Origin: Streptomyces sp. MUM 203J
GTDB lineage: Bacteria; Actinomycetota; Actinomycetes; Streptomycetales; Streptomycetaceae
Length of the DNA stretch: 64,000 nucleotides
NCBI RefSeq assembly: GCF_022414595.1
Contig: NZ_JADWYO010000031.1
Location: 1 to 64,000, forward strand
Direction: 5' to 3'
The notes beneath the pieces were generated by a model that had not been told where the DNA came from, did not search any database, and saw only the letters and a list, made by a program, of their open reading frames with translations. A program made the translations under genes and the position numbers. Below, one piece after another: positions 69 to 15,026 of this stretch (within the stretch, counting starts at the first letter, position 1; each line of letters starts with the position of its first letter).

Positions 69-665
69 CTAGCCCCGCGCCCGGGAGCCGCGGACACCGT
101 TGAGAGCGATGGCCACGGCCGTGTCCGCAATGACGGCCGGGGATTCGGCCGCGCCGAGTTCGATGCGGCGGACGGCCGCGTCGACAGCTCCCTGGAGCAG
201 CATCGCGGCCAGGCGGGGCTCCGGCTGGCCGAGGTCGGCCAGCACTTGGACGATCATGGTGATGAGCCCGCCGTGCGCAGCCCGGATCTTCTCGCGTGCC
301 CGGTCGTCGAGCTCACCGGCGGAGATGGCGACGACGGCCCGGTGGCGGCGGTCACCGACCAGTTCGAGCTGGCGCCGCACATACGCCTCGACCTTGGCCT
401 CCGGGGCAGCGACCCGCGCCATGGCGTCTTCGACCTCGGCGGCCCAGACGGGGAAGTCGACGGCGCACAGCTCCTCGACGACGGCGGCCCGTGAGCGGAA
501 GTACTCGTACACGGAGGACCGCGCCAGGCCGGTGCGCTCGGCCAGGGCGGGAAAGGTCAGCGCCTCCGTCCCGCCTTCGGAAAGCAGGGTGCGCGCGGCC
601 TCCAGCAGGGCGGCGCGCTGCATGCTCCGGTGCTCGGCCACAGAGGCCGCTCGAATCCTTGGCAC
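69..665 (-). CDS. TetR-family transcriptional regulator
   Basis: A 198-residue protein with the TetR layout. An N-terminal helix-turn-helix lies at about residues 36-56 (LTFPALAERTGLARSSVYEYF), followed by an all-helical C-terminal part of the kind that binds ligand and dimerises. The GTG at 665 is chosen because a TACAGT hexamer at 672-677 lies exactly 6 nt upstream, the spacing of a leaderless promoter, and no Shine-Dalgarno sequence is present. An ATG at 621-623 is an alternative giving 184 residues. The gene lies just downstream of whiG on the same strand. Its ligand and targets cannot be told from sequence. Confidence 0.85.
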   Translation of the reverse strand: MPRIRAASVAEHRSMQRAALLEAARTLLSEGGTEALTFPALAERTGLARSSVYEYFRSRAAVVEELCAVDFPVWAAEVEDAMARVAAPEAKVEAYVRRQLELVGDRRHRAVVAISAGELDDRAREKIRAAHGGLITMIVQVLADLGQPEPRLAAMLLQGAVDAAVRRIELGAAESPAVIADTAVAIALNGVRGSRARG

Positions 666-671
666 GGGACA

Positions 672-677
672 ACTGTA
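672..677 (-). promoter_or_regulatory. Putative -10 of a leaderless promoter for the TetR gene
   Basis: TACAGT is followed by TGTCCC and then the GTG start, so transcription could begin at or next to the start codon. No clear -35 is visible upstream, in the GC-rich whiG 3' end. Confidence 0.4.
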
Positions 678-712
678 CGGCGGCGGGCCGGGCGTCGGGG
701 CGGGGTGTCGGG

Positions 713-1549
713 TCAGCGTCCGACATCCGCCAGCTTGGCGCGGAGCTGGAGGACGGACTTCGTGTGGATCTGGCTGACACGGCTTTCGGTGACGCCGAGG
801 ACGTTGCCGATCTCCGCGAGGGTGAGCCCTTCGTAGTAGTAGAGCGTGATGACGGTCTTCTCGCGCTCGGGAAGCGTGTTGATCGCGCGGGCGAGGAGGC
901 GCCGCAGTTCGCGGCCTTCGGCCACCTCGACGGGGTCGTCCGCAGCGGTGTCCTCCAGCTTGTCCATGAGGCTGAGCCGATCGCCGTTCTCCCCTCCGAC
1001 GTGCAGGAGCTCCTCGAGGGCGACGACGTTCGCGAGCGACAGCTGGCTGAACACCCCGTGCAGGTCGTCGAGAGGGATGCCCATCTCGGTGGCGACCTCG
1101 CCCTCGGTGGGGGTGCGCCGCAGCCGGGCTTCGAGGGTGGCGTAGGCGCGCTCTACCGCGCGGGCCTTCTGGCGTACCGAGCGGGGGATCCAGTCGAGGG
1201 CGCGCAGTTCGTCGATCATGGCGCCGCGGATCCGGGTGATGGCGTAGGTCTCGAACTTGATGGAGCGGTCGAGGTCGAACTTCTCGATGGCGTCGATGAG
1301 TCCGAAGACGCCGGAGGAGACGAAGTCGGCTTGTTCGACATTGGAGGGCAGGCCCACACTGACGCGGCCTGCGACGTATTTCACGAGGGGCGAGTAGTGC
1401 AGGATGAGCTGCTCCCGTAGCCGCTCGTCGCCCGTCTCCTTGTACGACCGCCACAGCTCGTCGAGCGTCGAGGGGGCGGGCGGCCGTACGGTGCTCCCGG
1501 CGGCGGGGGGAGCTGCCGCGCGGTGGGACCCGGAGGTGTGCTGGGGCAT
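713..1549 (-). CDS. whiG: RNA polymerase sigma factor WhiG
   Basis: A 278-residue sigma factor of the FliA/WhiG group, which commits Streptomyces aerial hyphae to sporulation. Region 2 spans about residues 44-120, including [18 protein letters not shown], which matches the promoter-melting segment of FliA-type factors. Region 3 lies at about 130-200. Region 4 carries a helix-turn-helix at about 242-265 ([20 protein letters not shown]). Length and neighbours (dprA upstream, TetR gene downstream) fit WhiG. In other Streptomyces WhiG is controlled by the anti-sigma factor RsiG with c-di-GMP; the sequence here does not show this directly. The start is the ATG at 1547-1549. Confidence 0.96.
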
Positions 1550-3058: not shown

Positions 3059-3974
3059 TCATGCCCGCTGTCCGATCGCGAGGGGGACCCCACGGGTGAT
3101 GCCGGTGCGCAGTTCCAGCGCCAGGTCGACGTCACGGGCAACGGGTCGGTCGCGTCCCGCCAGGTCGGCCAGGGTCCACGCGACGCGCAGGACTCGGTCG
3201 AGCCCACGGGCGGTCAGAAGCCCCCGCTCGATGCCTCGTTCGGCGTTGCCGAGAGCGCCGGGCGCGGGCTGCCAGCGGGTGCGCAGCTCGTGCCCCGGAA
3301 CGTCGGCGTTGAGGCTCCACGGGGTGCCGTCGAGGCGGGCTGCCGCCCGTTCTCTGGCGCTCAGGACACGGGCGGCGACGGTGGCGGTGGGTTCGCCGGC
3401 GCCGTTCAGCAGGTCGGCCCGGGAGACGGGTTCGGCCTCGACGCGCAGGTCGACGCGGTCGAGGAGGGGACCCGAGAGCCGGGCCTGGTAGCGGCGGACG
3501 GCGGAGGGCGGGCAGTCGCAGCTGTCGCCGCGCAGGGTGTGCCGCCCGCAGGGGCACGGGTTGGCGGCCAGGACCATCAGGAAGTGCGCCGGGAGCCGTA
3601 CGACTCCGGCGGCGCGGGCGACGACGACGTGACCGGACTCCAGGGGCTGCCTCAGGGCGTCCAGCGCCTTGCCGGAGAACTCGGGGGCCTCGTCCAGGAA
3701 GAGCACGCCACGATGGGCGAGGGAGCAGGCACCCGGCCGCGGTGCGCCATTGCCGCCGCCGACCAGGGACTGCATGGTGGCCGAGTGGTGCGGCGCGCAG
3801 TAGGGCGCCGAGCTGACCAGGGGTCTGCCCGGCGGGAGGGTACCTGCGACGGAGTGCACGGCGGTGACTTCGAGGGACTCGCGCCGGGTCAGGGGCGGCA
3901 GCACGCCGGGGAGGCGCTCCGCGAGCATCGTCTTGCCCGCGCCGGGCGGCCCGGACAGAAACAGATGGTGACCG
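3059..3974 (-). pseudogene. comM: comM 3' fragment (Mg-chelatase-like ATPase, C-terminal part)
   Basis: The C-terminal 305 codons of ComM/YifB, an AAA+ helicase that assists branch migration. It begins with GGHHLFLSGPPGAGKTM, so the complete Walker A motif sits on this fragment. The Walker B region (GVLFLDEAPEF) and the C-terminal Mg-chelatase domain (NPCPCG motif) follow. Upstream the frame runs into the inserted element without a good start. The first ATG, at 3926-3928, lies after the P-loop, so a functional ATPase is unlikely from this fragment alone. Joined to 9074-9765 it gives 1,608 nt, or 535 residues, in frame, a normal ComM length. Confidence 0.93.
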
Positions 3975-4037
3975 AACCGGGCGGAATTGCATCTGATGCA
4001 CGACCCTGAGGCGGCTTGCCGGGCTGATCTGCAGAGA

Positions 4038-4065
4038 TGCTAGGGCGGTAGCGATCGCCCTAGCA
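4038..4065. repeat. 10-bp perfect inverted repeat near the left end of the element
   Basis: TGCTAGGGCG at 4038-4047 and CGCCCTAGCA at 4056-4065 are separated by 8 nt. The repeat lies between the left junction and the recombinase gene. It could be an operator for the XRE-type protein of the same operon, an arm-type recombinase site, or a terminator for transcription entering the comM 3' fragment. No U-tract follows. Confidence 0.55.
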
Positions 4066-4141
4066 AGCCTCCCACCTGGCACTTTGCCAACGATCATTCA
4101 TTGGATGCATGATTCGGTCGTCTAGCGGCAAGGGGGGTTCG

Positions 4142-5245
4142 GTGTCAGATCGGTTCGAACCGGAGGGGTCCGCACGGTTGCAGGTCGTCTCGGGCGTCAC
4201 CCTGCTGCACCCCGAGGACGCGATCTTCGAGGCAATGCTTGACGGCTGGGACCGGCAGCAACGGGGCGGACGGAACTTGGAGCGCAAGACCATCAGCGAC
4301 CGGCAGGCACGCGTCCGGGATTTCATGGAATTCGCGGGCGAGTATCCGTGGCACTGGAACGCGGCCCACATGGACGACTGGTCGAGTCACCTGATCGCTG
4401 AGCTTCACAGGAAGCCCTCCACGATCCGCAACTACCAAGGTGCGATCAGGCTGTTCTGCGACTACCTGATCAACCCGCACTACCGGTGGGTGGAGGAGTG
4501 CGAGCAACGGTTCGGTACGCACCCGGTGCAGATCTGCCACGAGTGGAACACCCTCGCCCACCTCGTCGACTACGAGGGGGACGAGGACCGTCGGCCCTTC
4601 ACCCGGAACGAGTTGCAGGCATTCTTCGACTACTGCGACGGCCGGGTCGAGCGAGCTGTCCGAAAGGGGCGGAAGGGGGCTCTGCACGCCTATCGCGACG
4701 CCACGATGTTCAAGGCGATCTACGCCTGGGGCCTTCGTCGCACGGAGGCTTCGCGGCTGGACTTGTCGGATTTCCACCGCAACCCCAAGGCTCCGGAGTT
4801 CGGCCGATACGGCGGCCTCCAGGTCCGATACGGAAAGCGCACTCGTGGGTCGGCCTATCGCCGGCGCGAGGTGCTGTCAGTGATGGACTGGGCGGTCGAG
4901 GCCGTCGAGGACTACGTCACCAACGTCCGGCCTCGCTTCGGGTTCCCGGACCATCCGGCCCTGTGGGTGACTGAGCGGGGTGGCCGTGTCCGCCCGCGGG
5001 AGATCGACGATCGGTTCGCCGACTACCGCACGGATCTGGAGCTTGACGAGAAACTGGTTCCTCACTGTCTGCGGCACAGTTACGTGACGCACCTGATCGA
5101 GGACGGTGCCGATGAGACCTTCGTACAGCAGCAGGTCGGGCACCGCTACAAGTCCACGACTGCGATCTATACGTCGGTCAGCGGTGACTTCATGAACACG
5201 ATGATGCGCCAGCACCTGGACCAGACCCTCGCTCCGATGGGATGA
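4142..5245 (+). CDS. Tyrosine recombinase / site-specific integrase
   Basis: A 367-residue tyrosine recombinase with all main catalytic positions. The first arginine is in AWGLRRTEA (R199). A likely beta-hairpin lysine is in RYGKRTRG. The HxxR box is PHCLRH (H308, R311), the next histidine is in GHRYKSTT (H334), and the nucleophile is in AIYTSV (Y343). A SAM-like core-binding domain precedes at about residues 45-115. The GTG at 4142 is chosen because AAGGGGGG lies 6 nt upstream; the ATG at 4109 would add 11 residues but has no ribosome site. It should cut and rejoin the element ends. It overlaps the next gene by 4 nt (ATGA). Confidence 0.93.
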   Translation: MSDRFEPEGSARLQVVSGVTLLHPEDAIFEAMLDGWDRQQRGGRNLERKTISDRQARVRDFMEFAGEYPWHWNAAHMDDWSSHLIAELHRKPSTIRNYQGAIRLFCDYLINPHYRWVEECEQRFGTHPVQICHEWNTLAHLVDYEGDEDRRPFTRNELQAFFDYCDGRVERAVRKGRKGALHAYRDATMFKAIYAWGLRRTEASRLDLSDFHRNPKAPEFGRYGGLQVRYGKRTRGSAYRRREVLSVMDWAVEAVEDYVTNVRPRFGFPDHPALWVTERGGRVRPREIDDRFADYRTDLELDEKLVPHCLRHSYVTHLIEDGADETFVQQQVGHRYKSTTAIYTSVSGDFMNTMMRQHLDQTLAPMG

Positions 5246-5589
5246 CGATGCCTTCCAAACTTGACTACCGCTGGCACCTGCGCGAGCTCATGGCGAAGCA
5301 GGGCATGTTCTCCACCACCGCGCTTCAGCCCTTGCTCGTCGAGCGTGGGATCAATTTGTCCACCAGCCAGGTCTATCGCCTGGTGACGGAGAAGCCCGAG
5401 CGGTTGAGCATGAAGGTCCTCATGGCCCTGCTCGACATTCTCGGCTGCGCGATGGACGAGCTGATCGAGCCGGTGGCCGCAGCGGCAGCGGCCCGACCGC
5501 GCAAGGCCGCCGGCGCCGAACTGGCCGGTGACGCCGGCGTCGGTTCCTTCCGGCCGAAGCGGGCCCGGATCTCGGGGGTTGATTCCTGA
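5242..5589 (+). CDS. Small XRE-type helix-turn-helix protein of the element
   Basis: A 115-residue protein whose first 75 residues match a Cro/C1 (XRE-like) helix-turn-helix: LRELMAKQGMFSTT, then the recognition-helix part LSTSQVYRLV and the closing LLDILGCAMDELI. The C-terminal tail of about 40 residues is Ala- and Arg-rich and looks unstructured. The start overlaps the recombinase stop (ATGA) and its stop overlaps the next start (TGATG), so the three genes form a coupled operon. It may repress the operon or act as a directionality factor by binding the ends; neither is shown. A second ATG six bases in is also possible. Confidence 0.85.
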   Translation: MTMPSKLDYRWHLRELMAKQGMFSTTALQPLLVERGINLSTSQVYRLVTEKPERLSMKVLMALLDILGCAMDELIEPVAAAAAARPRKAAGAELAGDAGVGSFRPKRARISGVDS

Positions 5590-8021
5590 TGGCGACTCCC
5601 GTGCCGGCCCCGGCTTCCGTCGAGGACGACACGGCCGCGATCGTGGCCGTCGTCCACGGGGTGGAACCCCGGCTTCGGGAGTCCGTAATCCGAACCGTGC
5701 TGGCGCAGACGTGCGTCGCCCGGACCAAGCGCCGCCGAGTCGCCCGCGCATTGGAAGGCGATCCGGGCCTTCTCACCTGCGGGCGTCCCGACGGGCCGGT
5801 CGCCGTCGATCAGCTGATCCACGCTCTGATTGCAGCTGGCGCCCGACAGCTGGTCGCCCCCCGCTGCCCCAAGTGCGGCACCCAGACGGCTCTGCTCAGC
5901 GAGAAGCTGGATGGCCAACGCGTTTGCCAGACCTGCAAAACGTCGTTCCGTGCCAACACGCGACCTTGTTCGGCCTGCGGGTCCACCCTCAACGTCAACT
6001 GCCGGGACCGTCAGGGACGTCCCGTCTGCCGCGGCTGCCGACCGGGCGACGGAGAAGACCCGGTGGCCCGCTTGATTGGCCAGGTCGCCCCTTTGGCCCC
6101 GGGCCTGAAATCCGAACAACTTCAGGCAGCGATTCAGGCTTCCAACAAGCAGTCGTACGCCCTGCTCAAGGTCTCCTGGGAGATCGAGGATCGTCCCGCG
6201 CTCCTGACGGGTGAGGGTGCCCAGGGCTCGCCGCATCTGATGCGGCTCCTCATAGAACTTCACAAGATCGGCGCGAGCGGCATCGTTGTCCCAGCCTGCC
6301 CGCAGTGCTCGGATGCACGCCCGCTGTTGTTCCGCGGCAAGAGTGGCCTTCGTGTCTGTCGCGGCTGCTATGACGCAGAACGAGCCCAGCCCTGCACAGG
6401 CTGCGGGAATGACCGCCCGGTCGTCTCCCGTTCTAACAGTGGCGGAGCCCTCTGTGGCACGTGCTCAGCCCAGGACCCCGAGAAGTTCGAGCAGTGCATC
6501 CAGTGCCGCCGCCATCGCCCCGTCGGACGGCGGACACCCGACGGGCCTCACTGTCGGGCCTGCTACCGACTGCCCGTCGACCGCTGCGGCCTCTGCGGCC
6601 GGAACCGGCCATGCATCGGAGCCAGTACGACGACGCCTCGCTGCGAAACCTGTTACCAGGTCAAGCACCCCTGTCACCGATGCGGAAAGACCTTCTACCC
6701 CCGAGCCCGCACACCGGATGGCTACCTCTGCCAGACCTGCTACAGAGTGGACCCGGTCGCCTACCGCACCTGCACCGGCTGCGGTCAGTCCGCCATTCTC
6801 TGGCACCACGGACTCTGCCCTCGTTGCGCCTGCACCCGCCGCCTCACGGAACTCCTTGCCGGCTCCGACGGCTCCATCCGCCCCGGTCTACAGCTGGCAT
6901 TCGAGGCCCTCAGCTCTGCTGACGACCCAAGATCGGTCCTCTCGTGGATCGCGCCCAGGACCAGGGCTGCCACCGTGCTGGCTCAGCTGGGAACCGACGG
7001 GTTCCCAGTCGATCACAGCACGCTCGATCAGTACCCTCGCAGCCGAGCCATCGACTACCTGCGAGGAGTCCTGGTCACCGCGGGCGCCCTTCCGCACCGT
7101 GATGAGCAGATGGTGGCCCTCCACCGGTCACTGAGCGAGATCTTCAACAGCATCTCGGACAGCGACGACCGCAAGTTGCTCCAGGCCTTCACCCAGTGGG
7201 ACCAGCTCGGCAGGCTCCGGCGACGCCTCGCAGGTCGTCCGGCGACCTACAACCAGATCAACACCATTCGGGTCCAGGTGAAGCAAGGTGCCCGCCTGAT
7301 GGCGTGGCTCCGCAATCACGACACTGACCTGTCCAGATGCAGCCAGCGCGAGATTGATCTATGGCTGTCGGAGGGCAAGTCCGTGCACCTGCATGCCCGC
7401 GCTTTCGTGAAGTGGGCAGCCGCCCGCGGCCACACCGCTGGTCTGCAGATCCCGCCACCGAGCCGCACCAACCCGACGCCGCCCCTCGACACCGAGAAGC
7501 GGATCGAGCTCTCCCGGCGGCTCCTGACGGACGCCACCCTCGCATTGGACCTGCGCGTCGCCGGCCTCATGGTCGTACTCTTCGCCCAGCCCGTTACGAC
7601 CATCACGAAGATCCGCATCGACCAGGTTCTTCACACCGATGCAGGCGTCCATATCGCCTTCGGACGAGAACCACTCCACCTGCCAGGCGCCATCGGAGAG
7701 CTGGTGACACACCTGTCAACCGACCGACGCGCTTACTCCGCCATTGGGCGAAACAGCACAAGCCCCTGGCTCTTCCCTGGCCGGCATCCCGAACAGCACC
7801 TCAGCCCAGCGACACTCCTGGAACGGCTCAAAGAGCTCGGAATCACGGCACGAGCCACCCAGCACGCCGCCCTCCGGGACCTCACCACAGCCCTGCCCGA
7901 GGCCGTGATCAACCGGCTCCTCGGCATCAGCATCTCCTCGGTCGACCGCTGGAAGGCCGGCGGTCAGTGGGCGAACTACGCGGCCGAGGTGGCCCGCCGT
8001 CGCATGCCACCCAAGGCGTGA
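5589..8021 (+). CDS. Zinc-array protein with degenerate tyrosine-recombinase domain
   Basis: An 810-residue protein. Residues 93-413 hold sixteen CxxC pairs that group into eight four-cysteine sites: 93/96+113/116, 127/130+147/150, 237/240+257/260, 269/272+289/292, 303/306+322/325, 333/336+352/355, 362/365+381/384 and 395/398+410/413. Pairs within a site are 15-20 residues apart. Residues about 550-615 resemble a SAM-like core-binding domain. Residues about 650-800 resemble a recombinase catalytic fold, but the first-arginine region reads FAQPVTTITK, the HxxR box reads AALRD, and the tyrosine position is W788. It is probably a catalytically dead architectural or target-choosing partner of the recombinase. 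I recognise no named family. Confidence 0.8.
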   Translation: MATPVPAPASVEDDTAAIVAVVHGVEPRLRESVIRTVLAQTCVARTKRRRVARALEGDPGLLTCGRPDGPVAVDQLIHALIAAGARQLVAPRCPKCGTQTALLSEKLDGQRVCQTCKTSFRANTRPCSACGSTLNVNCRDRQGRPVCRGCRPGDGEDPVARLIGQVAPLAPGLKSEQLQAAIQASNKQSYALLKVSWEIEDRPALLTGEGAQGSPHLMRLLIELHKIGASGIVVPACPQCSDARPLLFRGKSGLRVCRGCYDAERAQPCTGCGNDRPVVSRSNSGGALCGTCSAQDPEKFEQCIQCRRHRPVGRRTPDGPHCRACYRLPVDRCGLCGRNRPCIGASTTTPRCETCYQVKHPCHRCGKTFYPRARTPDGYLCQTCYRVDPVAYRTCTGCGQSAILWHHGLCPRCACTRRLTELLAGSDGSIRPGLQLAFEALSSADDPRSVLSWIAPRTRAATVLAQLGTDGFPVDHSTLDQYPRSRAIDYLRGVLVTAGALPHRDEQMVALHRSLSEIFNSISDSDDRKLLQAFTQWDQLGRLRRRLAGRPATYNQINTIRVQVKQGARLMAWLRNHDTDLSRCSQREIDLWLSEGKSVHLHARAFVKWAAARGHTAGLQIPPPSRTNPTPPLDTEKRIELSRRLLTDATLALDLRVAGLMVVLFAQPVTTITKIRIDQVLHTDAGVHIAFGREPLHLPGAIGELVTHLSTDRRAYSAIGRNSTSPWLFPGRHPEQHLSPATLLERLKELGITARATQHAALRDLTTALPEAVINRLLGISISSVDRWKAGGQWANYAAEVARRRMPPKA

Positions 8022-8022
8022 A

Positions 8023-8559
8023 TCAGCCGACCTCGACGGCCCACAGGCCGAGCCGAGAGCCGTCGTCACCATCCAGGTGATCGATTAGAGCCATCCCTGC
8101 CCGGGCCGCCAGGGCCTCGCTCGCCTTGTTCCGCGTGTCGATCTTGCCGAGAACAAGAATGGGACTCCCCGAGTCTGAACCCCGGATCGTGGACAGAGCG
8201 TGCTCGAAGGTGGCGTCCGCGACCTTCCGTCCCGCTCTGCGATGTTTCATGGACACGGCAAGCGCCATGATCAGGCGCTGAGGGCCTGCATAGTCGACGA
8301 GAGAACAGCGAGCGTGGGCATAGGCAGCGGCGATGCGGCCGTTCTCCGGCAGAATCCACAGCTGTTGATCTGCAGCGGCAGCCTTTGCAGTGCTGGTGAG
8401 GGACTCATCCCGAAACCAGGACTGAACACTGCGTTCCCACGGCAAGCTGTTATGCAGAGGCCGCCCTTTGCGGTCCTTCTTCGGCTTCGGAGTGCAGGTG
8501 AAGCCGTTCAGAAGGGCACGATCTTGCTTGATCGCCCTGCGCCAGTTGACAGAGTTCAC
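8023..8559 (-). CDS. GNAT-like acetyltransferase (element cargo)
   Basis: A 178-residue protein. The C-terminal half looks like a GNAT fold: a strand and acetyl-CoA loop region (LIMALAVSMKHRRAGRKVAD), a strand ILVLGKID, then N-K-A-S-E-A-L-A-A-R-A-G-M, the usual helix before the last strands. The acetyl-CoA loop is less glycine-rich than normal, so activity is uncertain. The GTG start at 8559 overlaps the upstream stop (GTGA). The gene ends one base from the end of the zinc-array gene, tail to tail. GNAT proteins coupled to a small basic partner include toxins that acetylate charged tRNA, but the partner here is not a recognised antitoxin type. Confidence 0.68.
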   Translation of the reverse strand: MNSVNWRRAIKQDRALLNGFTCTPKPKKDRKGRPLHNSLPWERSVQSWFRDESLTSTAKAAAADQQLWILPENGRIAAAYAHARCSLVDYAGPQRLIMALAVSMKHRRAGRKVADATFEHALSTIRGSDSGSPILVLGKIDTRNKASEALAARAGMALIDHLDGDDGSRLGLWAVEVG

Positions 8560-8981
8560 TCGGCGGGTGCCACAGTTCGACGTGGGATGGTTCCTTCGGC
8601 CAACCGTCGTTCCAGCGATTCGCGAGCTTTGTCCGGAAGAGCCGCCTTCATTTCGGCCTCGTACTTGGCACCCCGGGTCCGGGTCCGCTGGTTGGCAGCC
8701 TTCCAGGCGACAACCTGCTCTGCCATGCGTCGCTGGGTCGAAGAGAGGGTCTGTTTCGCCCCGCGTTGCGCCGAGCGCGGGCGGCGGATCCGCGCGAGAC
8801 CCTTGGAGCCATACGCGCCAAGCAGAGCCCGGAGCTCGGCTTCGGGCTTCCCTGCCATTCGCGCAACGTTCGCGCGACTGATCGGGTCGCTGGGCTCTTT
8901 CTTGGCGCCCTGCTTCTTGGCACCTTCGGCCTTCGCGGCAGCGCGGGTCCCCCGATCTGCCCCTGCTGCCTTCCGTCCCAT
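8556..8981 (-). CDS. Basic protein of unknown function (element cargo)
   Basis: A 141-residue, very basic protein. The first 30 residues are Lys/Ala/Gly-rich and look disordered. A helical middle part follows (ISRANVARMAGKPEAELRALL), then an Arg/Lys-rich region and a last helix ending LERRLAEGTIP. I recognise no family. The charge suggests nucleic-acid binding. The ATG at 8979-8981 is preceded by TATGCT 6 nt upstream, a possible leaderless promoter, and this upstream space lies inside the element. It is coupled to the GNAT-like gene by a GTGA overlap. Confidence 0.65.
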   Translation of the reverse strand: MGRKAAGADRGTRAAAKAEGAKKQGAKKEPSDPISRANVARMAGKPEAELRALLGAYGSKGLARIRRPRSAQRGAKQTLSSTQRRMAEQVVAWKAANQRTRTRGAKYEAEMKAALPDKARESLERRLAEGTIPRRTVAPAE

Positions 8982-8987
8982 GGGACG

Positions 8988-8993
8988 AGCATA
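8988..8993 (-). promoter_or_regulatory. Putative -10 of a leaderless promoter for the cargo operon
   Basis: TATGCT, then CGTCCC, then the ATG of the 141-residue gene. The 92 bp between this gene and the comM junction are the only place for its promoter inside the element. Confidence 0.4.
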
Positions 8994-9073
8994 CCCAGAC
9001 GGGGGACCCGAACCGCTGACGAAGCTCAGAAGGAGGGCCATTGCGCAACTTCTGATATCCGCCTCCACCAATA

Positions 9074-9765
9074 CCGGCCGCGGCGACCTCCAGGGCGAGG
9101 CGGGCCGCCCGCTGCCCCGCGACGTCCTTGAGGTCCGGGGTGTCGGCGGGCGTGGTGGCCAGTCCGGTGCCGAGGCCGGCACCGGGCACGAGGAGCCCGG
9201 CGAGTGCCGGATCGGGCCTGCCCTCCTCGCGCGGTCCCTCGTCGGGGAGGGGGGCGTCGTTGAGGACGGCGAGGAGCTGGCGCAGCGTGCGGACGCCGAG
9301 GACGGAGACGCCGGGGACGAGTGCGGCCTCCCCCGCGGTCTGCTCCGGCACCACGACGTGGTCGTATCCGGCCTCGGCGGCGGCGAGGACCGCCGGGAGG
9401 ACGCCCCGGACCGGCCTGACGCGGCCGTCGAGCCCGAGTTCTCCGATGAGGACGAGGTCGGCGATGGCGCGCGGGTCGACGAGTTCGGCGGCGGCGAGGA
9501 CGGCGACCGCGACCGCGAGGTCGAAGCCGGATCCCGCCTTGGGCACGGACGCGGGGCTGAGGCCCACGGTCAGTTTCCTCTGCGGCCACTCGGCGCCGGA
9601 GTTGCACACGGCGGCCCTGACTCGCTCTCTGGCCTCCGAGAGGCTCTTGTCGGGCAGCCCGACCAGGGTGAACGCGGCGACGCCGGGTTCCAGATCGGCC
9701 TGGACCTCCGCCACGACGCCGTCGACGCCGACGAGTGCGACGGAACAGGTACGCGCGAAGCCCAT
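9074..9765 (-). pseudogene. comM: comM 5' fragment (N-terminal Lon-protease-like domain)
   Basis: The first 230 codons plus two bases of ComM. It begins [16 protein letters not shown] and contains the Lon-like N-terminal domain (FTLVGLPDKSLSEARERVR, VGLSPASVPKAGSGFDL). It ends at DVAGQRAARLALEVAAAG, just before the ATPase P-loop. The ATG overlaps the yraN stop (TGATG), so translation should still start. After the junction the frame stays open through the element and runs into the GNAT-like gene, ending at 8023 (580 codons from the comM start). The ATPase part lies 5.1 kb away. Confidence 0.93.
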
Positions 9766-10127
9766 CACGCCACCCCCCGTACGTGCTCGACGACCGGCGC
9801 GCCGCGGCGCGGCAGGAGCACTCCGACCAGGTCGATGCGGATGCCGCCGGGCGGTGGCGCCCCGTGCCGGTCGAGCCAGCAGGCGGCCAGCCTCCTGAGC
9901 CGGTCGGCCTTGGCCGGGGTGACGCCCGCAGAGGGGTGCTCGAAGGTGCCCGCCCTGCGGGTCTTGACCTCGCAGACGACGACGGCGTCTCCGTCCCGGG
10001 CGACGATGTCGATCTCGCCGCGCCGCCCGCAGCGCCAGTTCCTGGCGATCACGGTCATGCCGGCCTGGCTCAGCCGGCGTACCGCCAGCCTTTCTCCGTA
10101 CTGTCCGAGTGCCCCGGTCGCGTTCAT
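9765..10127 (-). CDS. UPF0102 protein YraN (endonuclease-fold)
   Basis: A 120-residue protein of the YraN/UPF0102 family, with the restriction-endonuclease-like core GEID (E38, D40) and EVK (E53, K55). These are the residues that would hold metal in an active nuclease. Its cellular role is not established. The position directly before comM, with overlapping stop and start, is the standard arrangement. It reads [16 protein letters not shown] at the N-terminus, typical of the family. Confidence 0.92.
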
Positions 10128-10595: not shown

Positions 10596-11138
10596 CTAGA
10601 CGATTTCCGGGGACAGGACGAGCGGCGTTCGCGGAGGGCCGTCGTCGAGCAGTGTGCGCAACAGCCCGGCGAGTCGTGTCGGGTACACGGTCTCACGTGC
10701 CGCCGACAGTTCGCCGGAGGTCCACCACCGCAGTCCTGTGACGCTGCGGGTCTCCAGTTCGGTGAGGTCGGCGCCCAGGCCGACCTCGGTACGGGAGGTG
10801 CGGGCGAGGTAATACCACTCGTCCTGGTTCCAGCGCCGCCCGTCGAACGGGAACGAGCAGACCCGCCGCCACACGACCGGCCCGAGTTCGGCGTCGGTCA
10901 CGCCGGTCTCCTCGGCCAGCTCCCGCAGCGCGGCCTGCTCCCGGGTCTCGTCGCCCTCCACGCCGCCGCCCGGGGTGAACCACCAGTCCTGGGCCGGGTC
11001 ACCCGGCTCACAGCCGTGCAGGAGCAGGATCCGGTCGTCGGGGTCGAGCAGCACGACCCGCGCGACCTTCCGCAGCTCACCGGGCGGCAGCCCTCCCGGC
11101 AGCCCTTCGGGCGGCACACCTCCGCCCGCCGCCGGCAT
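10596..11138 (-). CDS. NUDIX hydrolase (MutT-like)
   Basis: A 180-residue protein with a full Nudix box at about residues 57-79 (GGGVEGDETREQAALRELAE), the motif that binds metal and cleaves nucleoside diphosphate-X compounds. The substrate cannot be read from the sequence. The ATG at 11138 lies one base after the sipZ stop (TGA-C-ATG), so it is the last gene of the sip operon. This matches the mutT-like gene that follows sipZ in other Streptomyces. Confidence 0.92.
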   Translation of the reverse strand: MPAAGGGVPPEGLPGGLPPGELRKVARVVLLDPDDRILLLHGCEPGDPAQDWWFTPGGGVEGDETREQAALRELAEETGVTDAELGPVVWRRVCSFPFDGRRWNQDEWYYLARTSRTEVGLGADLTELETRSVTGLRWWTSGELSAARETVYPTRLAGLLRTLLDDGPPRTPLVLSPEIV

Positions 11139-11139
11139 G

Positions 11140-11937
11140 TCACCCACGCGCCACCGCCTCGCCGGAACCGGCCCCGCGCCCGCCCGCGCCGCCGGAGCCA
11201 CCGCGGCCCACGGCCCGCCGCAGCACCCCCGCGACCGGCCCGTACGCGGCACCGCCCAGGATCAGCCCCACACCCGCGGCCAACGCCCAGGCCAGCGGCT
11301 CCACCGGCCCCGGCCGCGACACCCCGCCCGGCAGCGAGGCGAACGCGGCGGGCCGCTCCAGAACCCCCTCCAGCGGCCACACCACGGCGTCCAGCCGTCC
11401 CGTCACCGCGCTTCTGGGAACCGAACCCTGTCCGGGCTCCGTGAGGTGCACCCGGGAGTCCTGGGAGCTGGCGCGCTGGTCGCCGAGCAGGAACAGATGC
11501 CCGTCGGGCACCGTCGCGGAGAACGCGCCGGGCGAGGCGGCCTTCGCGTCCTCCCACACCTGCGGGTGCAGATACGGCTCGTCGACCGCCGTGCCGTTGA
11601 CGGTGAGCCGCCCGTCGGCGTCGCAGCAGACGACCTCGTCGCCGTCCACCCCCACGACCCGTTTGATCATCGTGACGCCGCCCCAGCGGGGGTCGCTGAA
11701 CACCACGATGTCGCCGCGCCGCACGTCGGCGCCGCCGACCCGCTCGGCCAGCACCCGGTCCCCCGCCGTCACCGTCGGGCTCATGGAGTCGGTCGGCACG
11801 GTGTACGGGTGGTAGACCAGGGCCGCCCATGCGAACCCGCCGAGGAACAGCACACAGCCGACGGCCACGGCCAGCCCCGACAGCATTCTGCCGAGGCGGC
11901 CGTGGCCGTCGCCACCGCTGCCTGTCGTTCCGCCCAT
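11140..11937 (-). CDS. sipZ: Type I signal peptidase SipZ
   Basis: A 265-residue membrane serine protease that removes signal peptides from Sec/Tat-exported proteins. A transmembrane segment lies at about residues 18-41. The catalytic serine is in VPTDSM (S51) and the general-base lysine in MIKRVVG (K92). The substrate-side motif GDQRASSQDSR follows. A second hydrophobic stretch lies near the C-terminus (about 205-230). The ATG at 11937 has GGAG 8 nt upstream; a GTG at 12003 would add 22 residues. It is the last of four tandem paralogues. Confidence 0.9.
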   Translation of the reverse strand: MGGTTGSGGDGHGRLGRMLSGLAVAVGCVLFLGGFAWAALVYHPYTVPTDSMSPTVTAGDRVLAERVGGADVRRGDIVVFSDPRWGGVTMIKRVVGVDGDEVVCCDADGRLTVNGTAVDEPYLHPQVWEDAKAASPGAFSATVPDGHLFLLGDQRASSQDSRVHLTEPGQGSVPRSAVTGRLDAVVWPLEGVLERPAAFASLPGGVSRPGPVEPLAWALAAGVGLILGGAAYGPVAGVLRRAVGRGGSGGAGGRGAGSGEAVARG

Positions 11938-12036
11938 ACCGGCGCTCCCCCGCTTCCGGATCGGTGCCCGCACCGGTCCTCGACCGGTGCCCTGGAACGG
12001 CACCCTACCCGCGGGTCGCTACCGGCGGTACGCCCC

Positions 12037-13188
12037 TTACGCGTCCCGGTGCGTCCGGTCAGGGCCGGCCGTGCCGGGAGCCGTCGCACCGTCGGCGGAC
12101 GCCGACGCGGACACCGCCCCGGCGGAGGCCGACGCCACCGCCCGCCGGCGCCGCCACAGCACCAGCGGCACCGCGCCCGCGAGGCCCAGCGCCCCGGGCC
12201 CGGCCGCGAGGGCGGCGGCCGCGTTCAGCCCCGGCTGGTCGAAGGTGTCCGGCACGGGCAGCGTGGCCCAGCGGCTGACCGGCCAGGCCACGACGACCGC
12301 CCGGCCGACGACCTCCTTGTTCTCGACCGTGCCGCCGCCCGGGAGCTCCTGGTGATAGCGGGAGTCCAGGGAGTTCTGGCGGTTGTCGCCCATCACCCAG
12401 ATCCTGCCCTCGGGCACCTTGATCGGCCCGAACGGCTGGTCGTCACACGGCGTCGAGCCCGGGTAGAGGTAGGCGGTCTCGTCCAGTTCCTTGCCGTTGA
12501 GGACGACCTTGCCACCCTTCTTGCACTCGACGGTGTCGCCGCCTACCGCGATGACGCGCTTGATCAGGTTCTGTTCGTCGGACTCCGGCATCAGTCCGAT
12601 CCAGCTCAGCACCCGCTGCACCGGGTTCGGCTCCGGCGCGGGCTCGTTGAGCCAGCCGCCCGGGTCGTGGAAGACGACGACCTCGCCGCGCTCGGGCTCC
12701 GAACCGAACCACGGGGTCAGCTTGTCGACCAGCACCCGGTCGCCGCGCTGCAGAGTGTTCATCATCGACTCGGACGGGATGGAGAACGCCTGCACCAGGA
12801 AGGACTTGATCAGCAGCGCCAGAACCAGCGCGATACCGATGAGCAGCGGCAGTTCCTTCCAGAAGGACCGCTGTTTCCCCGGCCCCTCACCGTCCGGGGT
12901 GCCGTCCCCGTCCGGGGTGCCGTCCCCGCCCCCGGACGCGCCGCCGGTGCCGTCATTGCCGTCGGTGTGGTTGTCCACGCTGCCGCCCTCGGCGTTCTCC
13001 GCGTTGTACGTGTTGCCCGCGCCCTGCGGGGCCGCGCCGACCGCGTCCCGCGGTCCCCCCGGGGCCGCCTCGCCGGTGCCGTCCACGGCGGGGCCTCCGG
13101 CCGGACCGGGGGATCGCTCAGCGACTTGCTCGCGCCCCGGCTCCGGCTCGTCTCGTCCGGATCGTGCGCCGACCGCCAGATCCCCCAC
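12037..13188 (-). CDS. sipY: Type I signal peptidase SipY
   Basis: A 383-residue signal peptidase with a long polar N-terminal cytoplasmic part (about 105 residues, with a GTPDGD/GTPDGE repeat). A transmembrane segment lies at about 113-131, the catalytic serine in IPSESM (S141), the lysine in LIKRVIAVGGD (K210), the GDNRQNSLDSR motif, and a second membrane segment near 320-345. The GTG at 13188 is chosen because GAGGAG lies 5 nt upstream; a GTG at 13194 is the alternative. The start lies inside the 3' end of sipX, a 71-bp overlap. Confidence 0.9.
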   Translation of the reverse strand: MGDLAVGARSGRDEPEPGREQVAERSPGPAGGPAVDGTGEAAPGGPRDAVGAAPQGAGNTYNAENAEGGSVDNHTDGNDGTGGASGGGDGTPDGDGTPDGEGPGKQRSFWKELPLLIGIALVLALLIKSFLVQAFSIPSESMMNTLQRGDRVLVDKLTPWFGSEPERGEVVVFHDPGGWLNEPAPEPNPVQRVLSWIGLMPESDEQNLIKRVIAVGGDTVECKKGGKVVLNGKELDETAYLYPGSTPCDDQPFGPIKVPEGRIWVMGDNRQNSLDSRYHQELPGGGTVENKEVVGRAVVVAWPVSRWATLPVPDTFDQPGLNAAAALAAGPGALGLAGAVPLVLWRRRRAVASASAGAVSASASADGATAPGTAGPDRTHRDA

Positions 13189-14158
13189 ATCCACTCCTCA
13201 GTCCATGCGTTCGCCCGCCCCAGAGCAGGGGAAGGCCCACTACTCCCATAACGAGCGGGAGTTCCGCAGGGGTCGGGAGCCGTAGCGATCCATTCGGATT
13301 CCGAGAGGACACACTATGCGACGCGCCGAGTGCCGTCGTGGCACCGGGCGACGGCGCGTCCGGTACGGCCCCGAACACATCCCGTCGCTCCAGCCCCTGC
13401 CAGTGGCCCACCGGCCAGCCGATGTAGACGGCCCGGCCCACGACGCCTTCTTCGGGGATCGTGCCCTGGAACTCCTCGTCCAGATGAAACCGGGAGTCGG
13501 CCGAGTTGGCGCGGTGGTCCCCCATGACGAAGAGGCGCCCGGGCGGTACCCGGACCTCGAATCTGATCTCCGAGGGGGAGTTGCCCGGATGCACGTACGG
13601 CTCGTCCAGGGGAACGCCGTTGACGGTGAGGCGCCCGCTGTCGTCGCAGCACTTCACGGTGTCGCCGCCGACGGCCACCACACGTTTGATGAGGTCCTGT
13701 TCGTCGTCCGAGGGCAGCAGCCCGATGAACGTCATGCCCTCCTTGACCTGCTTGATGAGGAACGGGTCGTCCTCCTCGGGAAGCTGGTCCTGCTGGAGCC
13801 ATCCGCCGGGATCCTCGAACACGACCACGTCGCCGCGCTGCGGCTTCGTCCCGAACCAGGGTGTCAGCTTGTCGACGAGCACCCGGTCGTCGATCTGGAT
13901 CGTCTCCTCCATGGAGCCGGAGGGAATGACGAACGCCTGCACCAGGAAGGTCTTCAGGACGAGCGCTATCAGCACGGCGGCCGTGACGAGGAGCGGGATC
14001 TCCTTGACCGCGGACCGTCGGCGGCGCCGCTTGACCTTGCGGGCGAGCCTGCGCCGCTCCGCGCGCCCGGGGAGCGGGGAGCGCCCGTCGGTGGGCCGGG
14101 TCCCGGTGGGCAGCCGGGTGTCGGCACCGTGACCGCCGGGCCGCCCGCGCCTACCCAT
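13118..14158 (-). CDS. sipX: Type I signal peptidase SipX
   Basis: A 346-residue signal peptidase. A short basic cytoplasmic region (RRRRR at 44-48) is followed by a transmembrane segment at about 53-73, the catalytic serine in IPSGSM (S82), the lysine in LIKRVVAVGGD (K158), and GDHRANSADSR. A C-terminal membrane segment (PLVMGVVGLPLLW) follows, then about 35 Arg/Gly-rich residues that overlap sipY out of frame. This tail looks like read-through past a lost stop rather than a designed domain. The ATG at 14158 overlaps the sipW end by 8 nt and has GGCGGAGG upstream. Confidence 0.9.
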   Translation of the reverse strand: MGRRGRPGGHGADTRLPTGTRPTDGRSPLPGRAERRRLARKVKRRRRRSAVKEIPLLVTAAVLIALVLKTFLVQAFVIPSGSMEETIQIDDRVLVDKLTPWFGTKPQRGDVVVFEDPGGWLQQDQLPEEDDPFLIKQVKEGMTFIGLLPSDDEQDLIKRVVAVGGDTVKCCDDSGRLTVNGVPLDEPYVHPGNSPSEIRFEVRVPPGRLFVMGDHRANSADSRFHLDEEFQGTIPEEGVVGRAVYIGWPVGHWQGLERRDVFGAVPDAPSPGATTALGASHSVSSRNPNGSLRLPTPAELPLVMGVVGLPLLWGGRTHGLRSGCGGSGGRRTIRTRRAGAGARASR

Positions 14159-15026
14159 GGCCTCCGCCGACCACCGCTCCCCCGGCCGGTACGGCGTCGA
14201 AGGCACCGGTCCGGCCGACGGTGGACCACCGCCCGGCCGGCCACGCGATCCAGTCGGCCCGGCCGATCACCCGGTCGACCGGGACCATGCCGCCGCCGGG
14301 CGCGCCGAGCAGTTCGCGGGAGTCCCGGGACTGGCTGCGGTGGTCACCCATCACCCAGAGCCTGCCGGGCGGCACGACGATGTCGAACGGCACCCGGGAC
14401 GGGGAGTCGCCCGGATACAGGTACGGCTCGTCGACCACTGCTCCGTTCACCTGGACCCTGCCTTCCTTGTCACAGCACGTCACCCGGTCACCGCCCACGC
14501 CGATCACGCGCTTGACGAAGACGGTGTCCGACGGCTCGGCCAGCCCGAGCCCCGCGGCGAGTCCGCGCAGTGCTCCGGTGACCGGATTCTCCTCGGGAAC
14601 GTTCCGGACGAACGATCCGGTTCCGTCGAAGACGATCACGTCCCCGCGCGGGGGCGGGTCGTCGGAGCCGTACGCCAGTCTGTTCACGAGGACCCGGTCA
14701 CCGACCTGAAGCGTCGGATCCATCGAACGGCTGGGGATCTGGTAGGGGGAGAGGACGAACCGGCCCACCAGCAGCACGGCCACCGCGCAGACGAGGCCGA
14801 TGATCCCGATCCGCCGCCAGGACAGCCCGCCCAGCCACGCCACGCCCTCGGCGCCGCCGTCGGCGGGCGGGCCGGCGTCCGGGGCCTCAGGATCCGCGGA
14901 GTCGGCCGGATCCGAGGGGTCCGGCGCGGCCGGTCGCCGGAAACGCGCAGAGCGCGACCCGCCCTCCGTGCGCCTGTCGGCGTCGGGAGGCAGATCGCGC
15001 TCCGTGTGCTGTGCTTCGGTGTCCAT
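14151..15026 (-). CDS. sipW: Type I signal peptidase SipW
   Basis: A 291-residue signal peptidase, first of the four tandem genes after rplS. A 65-residue Pro/Asp/Ala-rich cytoplasmic part precedes a transmembrane segment at about 72-93. The catalytic serine is in IPSRSM (S101) and the lysine in FVKRVIGVGGD (K172). GDHRSQSRDSR is the later conserved motif. Unlike SipX and SipY there is no clear second membrane segment near the C-terminus, in line with the single-anchor type described for SipW of S. lividans. Confidence 0.91.
   Translation of the reverse strand: MDTEAQHTERDLPPDADRRTEGGSRSARFRRPAAPDPSDPADSADPEAPDAGPPADGGAEGVAWLGGLSWRRIGIIGLVCAVAVLLVGRFVLSPYQIPSRSMDPTLQVGDRVLVNRLAYGSDDPPPRGDVIVFDGTGSFVRNVPEENPVTGALRGLAAGLGLAEPSDTVFVKRVIGVGGDRVTCCDKEGRVQVNGAVVDEPYLYPGDSPSRVPFDIVVPPGRLWVMGDHRSQSRDSRELLGAPGGGMVPVDRVIGRADWIAWPAGRWSTVGRTGAFDAVPAGGAVVGGGHG

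Follow-up and report, generated by a model that had tools for sequence, protein, structure and literature searches.

A Tsy-like transposon of Streptomyces with a probable catalysis-less TnsF-type target selector, and its actinobacterial relatives

Introduction

Tsy transposons insert in the comM gene and comprise a tyrosine recombinase (YRec), a helix-turn-helix (HTH) protein, and TnsF, which is composed of zinc fingers, core-binding domains, and a recombinase-like domain (PMC10293859). According to the same source, TnsF binds comM DNA and selects comM both for Tn6022, in which TnsF is catalytically dead, and for ZooTsy of Zoogloea, in which it is active, and is required for insertion by both elements. 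Furthermore, catalysis by TnsF is essential in ZooTsy, the tyrosine of ZooTnsF is Y584, and ZooTsy needs 135 bp at the recombinase-proximal end and 20 bp at the distal end (PMC10293859). A list of 1,099 TnsF homologues accompanies that article as a supplement, and the terms “Actinobacteria” and “Actinomyc” do not occur in its main text. It is the sole description of TnsF/Tsy biology found in a literature covering few subscription journals and preprints. The present article concerns a stretch of 64,000 nucleotides from Streptomyces sp. MUM 203J (contig NZ_JADWYO010000031.1, positions 1 to 64,000; hereafter, the window), in which an 810-residue protein is encoded behind a YRec gene and a small HTH gene. 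A preliminary description, based on the letters of the window, knew of no described family with this layout; the layout is that of Tsy. The locus is probably a Tsy-like transposon, in which the 810-residue protein acts as a TnsF-type target selector devoid of catalysis and the upstream recombinase carries out the chemistry. At the level of sequence, the anatomy of the element, its ends, the family-wide catalytic loss, the precise insertion without duplication, and the target classes are established.

Relationship to Tsy and Other Described Systems

When the actinobacterial family was compared by profile with two proteobacterial TnsF-like proteins, both from Variovorax, hhalign yielded a probability of 99.8 and an E value of 4.5e-30 over 547 columns, and the zinc part of the family matched TnsF of Acinetobacter Tn6022 with a probability of 96.5. 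The assignment of the 810-residue protein as a selector without catalysis is based on these two likenesses and on the TnsF precedent. In the hhalign alignment, W788 of the window protein is paired with Y585 of Variovorax and, from its position, would be the counterpart of Zoogloea Y584. Both Variovorax genes stand behind a YRec gene, and the HTH gene is annotated in one locus (L209) and was read as an open reading frame (ORF) in the other (L211). In these two loci, located on plasmid 2 of Variovorax sp. PBL-E5, Y585 is kept and a normal H..R box is seemingly absent; TnsFs of the Tsy type may therefore differ in how active they are. Plasmid pACNA2.1 of Acidovorax carolinensis (L210) carries a Tn7-like operon of TnsA, TnsB-like, and TniB genes plus one more ORF, behind which lies a TnsF relative approximately 23% identical to Acinetobacter TnsF.

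The window element shares with Tsy the operon of YRec, HTH, and TnsF genes with an intact upstream YRec, the domain set of TnsF with a recombinase-like C-terminus, and the insertion in comM, and it shares with ZooTsy a long recombinase-proximal end, a short distal end, and the absence of obvious inverted repeats (PMC10293859). Unlike ZooTsy, it encodes a catalytically dead TnsF, which bears an additional N-terminal duplicated helical and zinc module of approximately 230 residues; a GIY-YIG gene is absent, and the actinobacterial family has further targets, namely tyrosine recombinases and RNA ligases. The site in comM also differs: Tsy is inserted at Walker B, with the 5′ part of comM upstream of YRec (PMC10293859), whereas the window element lies beside Walker A in the opposite orientation. 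Genomic islands of the GInt type (ginABCD) resemble the window element in their tyrosine recombinases, a small helical protein at one end, site-specificity, and cargo, and their GinC is a recombinase-like protein without the first arginine; by contrast, they have three integrases and ginD, whereas one Pfam integrase is present in the window element, and they have no zinc-rich target selector, the word “zinc” being absent from the text of PMC5385486 (PMC5385486). In Tn6022 and the AbaR-type Tn7-like elements, as in the window protein, zinc fingers are followed by an inactivated tyrosine-recombinase domain, which is the comM target selector of Tn6022. However, Tn6022 is mobilized by tnsABC-tniQ with a DDE transposase, whereas the window element has its own tyrosine recombinase with an intact site; its 5,099 bp contain the YRec, HTH, and TnsF-like genes and two small minus-strand ORFs, and none of tnsA, tnsB, tnsC, or tniQ. 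Tn554 and RIT elements likewise have tandem tyrosine-recombinase genes and insert site-specifically. They are not known to have a zinc-rich TnsF-like protein.

Distribution and Conservation of the Gene Set

Matches to the family were obtained in 115 of 297 genomes of Streptomycetaceae at E ≤ 1e-3 and in 52 of 392 genomes of the same genus at E ≤ 1e-60. Among plasmid records, 247 of 72,556 matched, whereas none of 50,697 phage records did, and one of 106 candidate stretches from viral contigs was a relative. A query of genome contigs with the single protein returned nine stretches and no relatives; with the alignment as query, 164 of 181 stretches were relatives, of which the best 80 were kept. 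Among these best 80, named loci include those of Streptomyces, Kitasatospora, Nocardia, Mycobacterium, Rhodococcus, Pseudonocardia, and Salinispora, as well as metagenome-assembled genomes (MAGs) that carry the labels Nitriliruptorales, Dormiibacterota, and Acidobacteria.

The order recombinase–HTH–TnsF-like protein is conserved in 115 of 130 loci, a count in which certain loci overlap and others had been retrieved for a different purpose, and the genes usually touch or overlap, the HTH gene being the middle member of the conserved set. The preliminary description had put the 810-residue protein consistently behind an active recombinase and a small XRE protein and had proposed a profile search for the three genes together; the count bears out this arrangement. 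The same order bears on the proposal that the zinc protein is cargo, i.e., a regulator or defence factor travelling with the recombinase. Such a role would agree with the absence of any Pfam or NCBIfam family above threshold for this protein; nevertheless, it is the least probable account considered here, given the homology to TnsF and a gene order that stays fixed in several families of actinobacteria and in some MAGs from other phyla.

Structure of the Element and Insertion in comM

The minus-strand comM gene is split by the insertion. In a comparison with 19 related comM loci, its two parts are contiguous at a single point in the nearest relatives, from which the limits of the insert in Table 1 are derived. 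The break lies between the codons of ..LEVAAAG and GHHLxLSGPPGAGKT, directly before Walker A, and no target duplication accompanies it. A scan of the window ends for repeats detected no convincing terminal inverted repeat; the limits of the element were therefore set by the empty comM site and by comparison with relatives. The family consensus of the recombinase-proximal end is AACCCTCGGGAATTGCATCAG and that of the distal end is AGGCATTC.GA.AGTTCCAATACCCGACT.CACCATTA. A search with the recombinase-proximal pattern matched 4 of 61 genomes and none of the controls; in the 3-kb locus around one match (G312), a recombinase of the family is absent. Two further genomes of the same genus carry elements of 28,781 bp (G190) and 5,044 bp (G378) at the identical comM position and in the identical orientation, and their TnsF-like proteins are 39–40% identical to the window copy. 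The three elements have AAC.G.GCGG.ATTGCA.C.GATGCACGA as their common recombinase-side sequence and ACCAATA as their common far-side sequence, and the comM site is, as these comparisons indicate, used by three independent elements. The insertion of the three-gene set in comM, as previously proposed, is upheld. The active site of YRec is intact (R210, K243, H319, R322, H345, and Y354) and invariant in 21 of 21 aligned sequences.

Table 1. Coordinates of the element, its genes, and its comM flanks in the window, in nucleotides unless residues are stated
Feature	Position	Strand	Basis or remark
Whole inserted element, 5,099 bp	3975..9073		blastn with the window as query and 19 comM loci from related genomes as subjects
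Recombinase-proximal end, beginning AACCGGGCGGAATTGCATCTGATGCA	3975..4108	+	Conserved start of compared elements
Palindrome TGCATCTGATGCA	3988-4000		Within the recombinase-proximal end
Tyrosine recombinase (YRec)	4109..5245	+	Pfam PF00589, E 3.8e-19
Small HTH protein of Cro/C1 type (XRE type), 115 residues	5242..5589	+	Pfam PF13443 HTH_26, E 3.4e-15
TnsF-like gene	5589..8021	+	810-residue product
TnsF-like protein, duplicated helical and zinc module	residues ~10-152, ~154-293		
TnsF-like protein, four further zinc sites	residues 303-413		
TnsF-like protein, core-binding and dead catalytic domain	residues ~525-807		Separated from the zinc part by a helical part
Cargo ORF stretch, weakly GNAT-like, uncertain start	8023..8559	-	Pfam PF00583, E 0.14 only
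Cargo ORF, 140 residues	8556..8978	-	No Pfam match
Distal end, finishing ..CTTCTGATATCCGCCTCCACCAATA	9034..9073	+	
comM 3′ part (Walker A to C-terminus)	3059..3974	-	Pfam Mg_chelatase, E 1e-63
comM 5′ part, approximate start	9074..9770	-	ORF reading and comM comparison

Outside the element, several signal-peptidase-I-like genes, judged by eye from the list of ORFs, are arranged in tandem on the minus strand of the window at 10898-14515.

Zinc Modules and Dead Recombinase Domain of the TnsF-Like Protein

The 16 CxxC pairs of the 810-residue protein form eight four-cysteine sites (93/113, 127/147, 237/257, 269/289, 303/322, 333/352, 362/381, and 395/410). The zinc-site cysteines are almost all invariant in the aligned relatives (n = 18 and n = 45), with C116, C150, and C352 near-invariant in the larger set. 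This far exceeds chance, and the eight sites of the preliminary description are corroborated. The zinc part contains an internal duplication (29% identity, E value 9e-16), each unit of which consists of a bundle of helices with two zinc sites behind it. No family of Pfam or NCBIfam was matched above the cut-off by the protein, and a sequence search of the PDB returned no relative, only chance zinc proteins (best E value 0.014).

The AlphaFold2 model, built from a 45-sequence alignment, has a mean predicted local distance difference test (pLDDT) score of 85.4. When the PDB was searched with this model by Foldseek, the best 50 matches listed were all tyrosine recombinases (best E value 1.8e-3, probability 1.00), and structural re-alignment spans residues 525-807, with Z scores of 10.9 for XerH (237 aligned residues; root-mean-square deviation (rmsd), 12.0) and 9.7 for the C-domain of Cre (148 aligned residues; rmsd, 3.9). 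A profile of the C-terminal part of the TnsF-like family also matched, with a modest probability of 87.6, the 51 ORFs outside relatives of the element described below, most of which are recombinases. The C-terminal part is accordingly predicted, by the model together with this profile match, to have the catalytic-domain fold of the tyrosine-recombinase superfamily.

Tryptophan occupies the position of the catalytic tyrosine (W788) in every relative of both alignments (18 of 18 and 45 of 45), and in a 31-row alignment tyrosine is found in none of the rows extending to this column. Residues 760-763 read AALR, which the preliminary description took for the HxxR box; the profile alignment, of the modest probability given above, instead places the box at R755-A-T-Q758. 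An H..R pair is absent under either placement, so the loss stands and the position of the box is revised. The first arginine, both histidines, and the tyrosine position are lost across the aligned TnsF-like family, i.e., the catalytic residues are gone family-wide in these actinobacterial proteins. The earlier proposal of a dead recombinase-like domain behind the zinc sites agrees with these data: the structure prediction that it called for gave a tyrosine-recombinase fold rather than an unrelated one, and no homologue with the catalytic residues was encountered among the 45 relatives. A catalytic role through an unusual active site, for example, with Y797, is very improbable. It would draw on Y797, invariant in 45 of 45 aligned relatives, and on R758, a possible second catalytic arginine that is near-invariant in relatives; however, the window copy has Q758, the other catalytic positions are lost as described above, and Y797 is located one helix after the W788 helix in the AlphaFold2 model.

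Targets of the Family

Junctions in relatives were marked by the recombinase-side consensus AACCCTCGGGAATTGCATCAG. From 115 upstream regions, 85 junctions were obtained; a region was removed if its outside part was shorter than 90 nt, if no end could be recognised, or if its 120-nt junction duplicated another. An in-frame tyrosine codon is located exactly at codon −2 before the element in 59 of the 85 distinct junctions, and 41 of these 59 have the full G-H...Y signature. With 24 short ORFs and the window set aside, outside ORFs of at least 60 residues numbered 51 with the tyrosine and nine without. Among the 51, Pfam Phage_integrase was matched by 41 and 2′-5′ RNA ligase by four (E ≤ 1e-3), and weaker matches comprised a fifth RNA ligase, one ISL3 transposase, and two diverged recombinases. 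As the outside ORFs share just approximately 15% column identity, they are different recombinases cut at the same codon, one past the catalytic tyrosine. The recombinase and RNA-ligase targets share the DNA motif ACC-N6-TAC-N3| at an equal offset; in tyrosine recombinases this DNA codes for the catalytic-tyrosine motif, and in 2′-5′ RNA ligases for HxT/S..Y. The sequence of the comM site differs. The conserved ends of the actinobacterial family and its duplication-free insertion at particular coding motifs are new findings, and comM, which the preliminary description regarded as the target, is one of several.

The far end (..AGTTCCAATACCCGACT.CACCATTA) was located 60 times, and the target gene continues in frame behind it in the cases read. 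Openness of the right flank (n = 44) was 42 in frame 0, 42 in frame 2, and 34 in frame 1 and is uninformative in GC-rich DNA; comparison of joined flanks with intact relatives was therefore preferred. The joined flanks of L195 correspond to an uninterrupted peptide in Streptomyces plasmids (116 residues/348 nt, 87.9%), those of the RNA-ligase locus L052 have an intact counterpart (146 residues/438 nt, 75.3%), and those of L200 yielded only partial or gapped relatives. Elements in L038, L041, L045, and L199 are nested, interrupting the YRec of another family member, the HTH and TnsF-like genes of which follow the far end. In L051/L124 and L044/L116, two elements stand in tandem at one shared site, the recombinase-side end of the one lying directly against the far end of the other. 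No description of transposons homing to recombinase genes in this manner was found in the listed titles and beginnings of abstracts in the literature delimited above.

The in-frame tail that interrupted recombinases gain from the element has exactly 32 codons before its stop in 42 of 93 left ends. Its ratio of non-synonymous to synonymous polymorphism (pN/pS) is 0.76 in frame versus 0.90 and 1.12 in shifted frames, a weak coding signal, and the stop may be conserved as part of a DNA motif; the tail is not claimed as a selected protein sequence.

Selection of the Target

In the mechanism favoured here, the upstream recombinase would cut and rejoin all strands, and the zinc modules and core-binding domain of the 810-residue protein would bind the target DNA. 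The protein would thus contact the recombinase and hold the target in a recombination complex that also contains the recombinase, the HTH protein, and both ends of the element. Insertion would thereby fall at a constant distance from a conserved coding motif, which is comM beside Walker A in the window lineage and ACC-N6-TAC-N3| in sister lineages. A YRec-dependent circular intermediate, as in Tsy (PMC10293859), may be involved. The 810-residue protein would have lost catalysis without departing from its original recombinase-based element, in which the upstream recombinase would now perform all of the chemistry. The preliminary description suggested a complex in which this protein either recognises comM or bridges the ends; recognition of the target is, by analogy with TnsF, its likeliest role.

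Target class clusters on the TnsF tree, with 14 changes over all groups versus a mean of 31.3 after shuffling and none of 200 shuffles as low; in this test, the label “recombinase target” comprises the junction signature plus a few cases judged by eye. Several points nevertheless weigh against the favoured mechanism. Target class clusters equally on the YRec tree (15 changes versus a shuffled mean of 30.6), and the assignment of the target reader to the TnsF-like protein consequently leans on the precedent of TnsF. The mechanism must also differ from that of ZooTsy, which needs TnsF catalysis (PMC10293859). The three comM TnsFs were not recovered as a single clade, the fork being left open on the trees, and a target class was assigned for 61 of the 85 elements, leaving 24 without one. 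Finally, hhalign gave no match between the TnsF profile and the profile of the element's own YRec, and the link between TnsF and recombinases is therefore drawn from the fold and from the C-terminal match to the 51 outside ORFs.

The clustering on both trees would also suit an arrangement, unlikely in our estimation, in which the target is recognised by the recombinase, through the core-binding domain that it has itself, and the zinc-bearing dead protein is an architectural or regulatory partner, bridging the element ends, controlling directionality, or filling inactive protomers of the synapse. The RNA-ligase group, which requires one change on the YRec tree versus two on the TnsF tree, points in the same direction, and the palindrome in the end sequences by the junction could be a recombinase or HTH site. 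However, the recombinase is the more conserved partner despite the diverse targets, main YRecs being 58–66% identical to the window copy versus 33–39% for the TnsF-like proteins, and TnsF of Tn6022 and of ZooTsy selects comM through direct binding to its DNA (PMC10293859). Reading of the target by the 810-residue protein rather than by the recombinase is the account that we infer.

Perspectives

A wider reading, for and against which we consider the balance to be even, is that a large actinobacterial transposon family employs a dead zinc-module recombinase as an evolvable selector steering it to DNA of catalytic motifs, i.e., the catalytic-tyrosine codon in recombinases of other mobile elements, the second catalytic motif of 2′-5′ RNA ligases, and comM beside Walker A, with the main lineages being “integrase hunters.” If so, these elements, annotated as “hypothetical protein” or “site-specific integrase,” would enter rival elements, with relatives from their own family among them, one codon past the catalytic tyrosine. 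This tyrosine would stay and the element-encoded tail would join in frame, such that the host integrase would be disarmed or captured with an altered C-terminus. TnsF was previously known from one site, comM, in two contexts; the family adds many diverged TnsF-like selectors with mapped targets, and the chemistry in all these elements appears to come from a single recombinase. Owing to these naturally diverged selectors with mapped targets, DNA reading by a dead tyrosine recombinase and the transfer of target choice become directly testable, and a target choice movable between elements would be relevant to builders of site-specific insertion tools. For the biology of the family, precise homing into the recombinase genes of other elements represents a form of parasitism of element on element.

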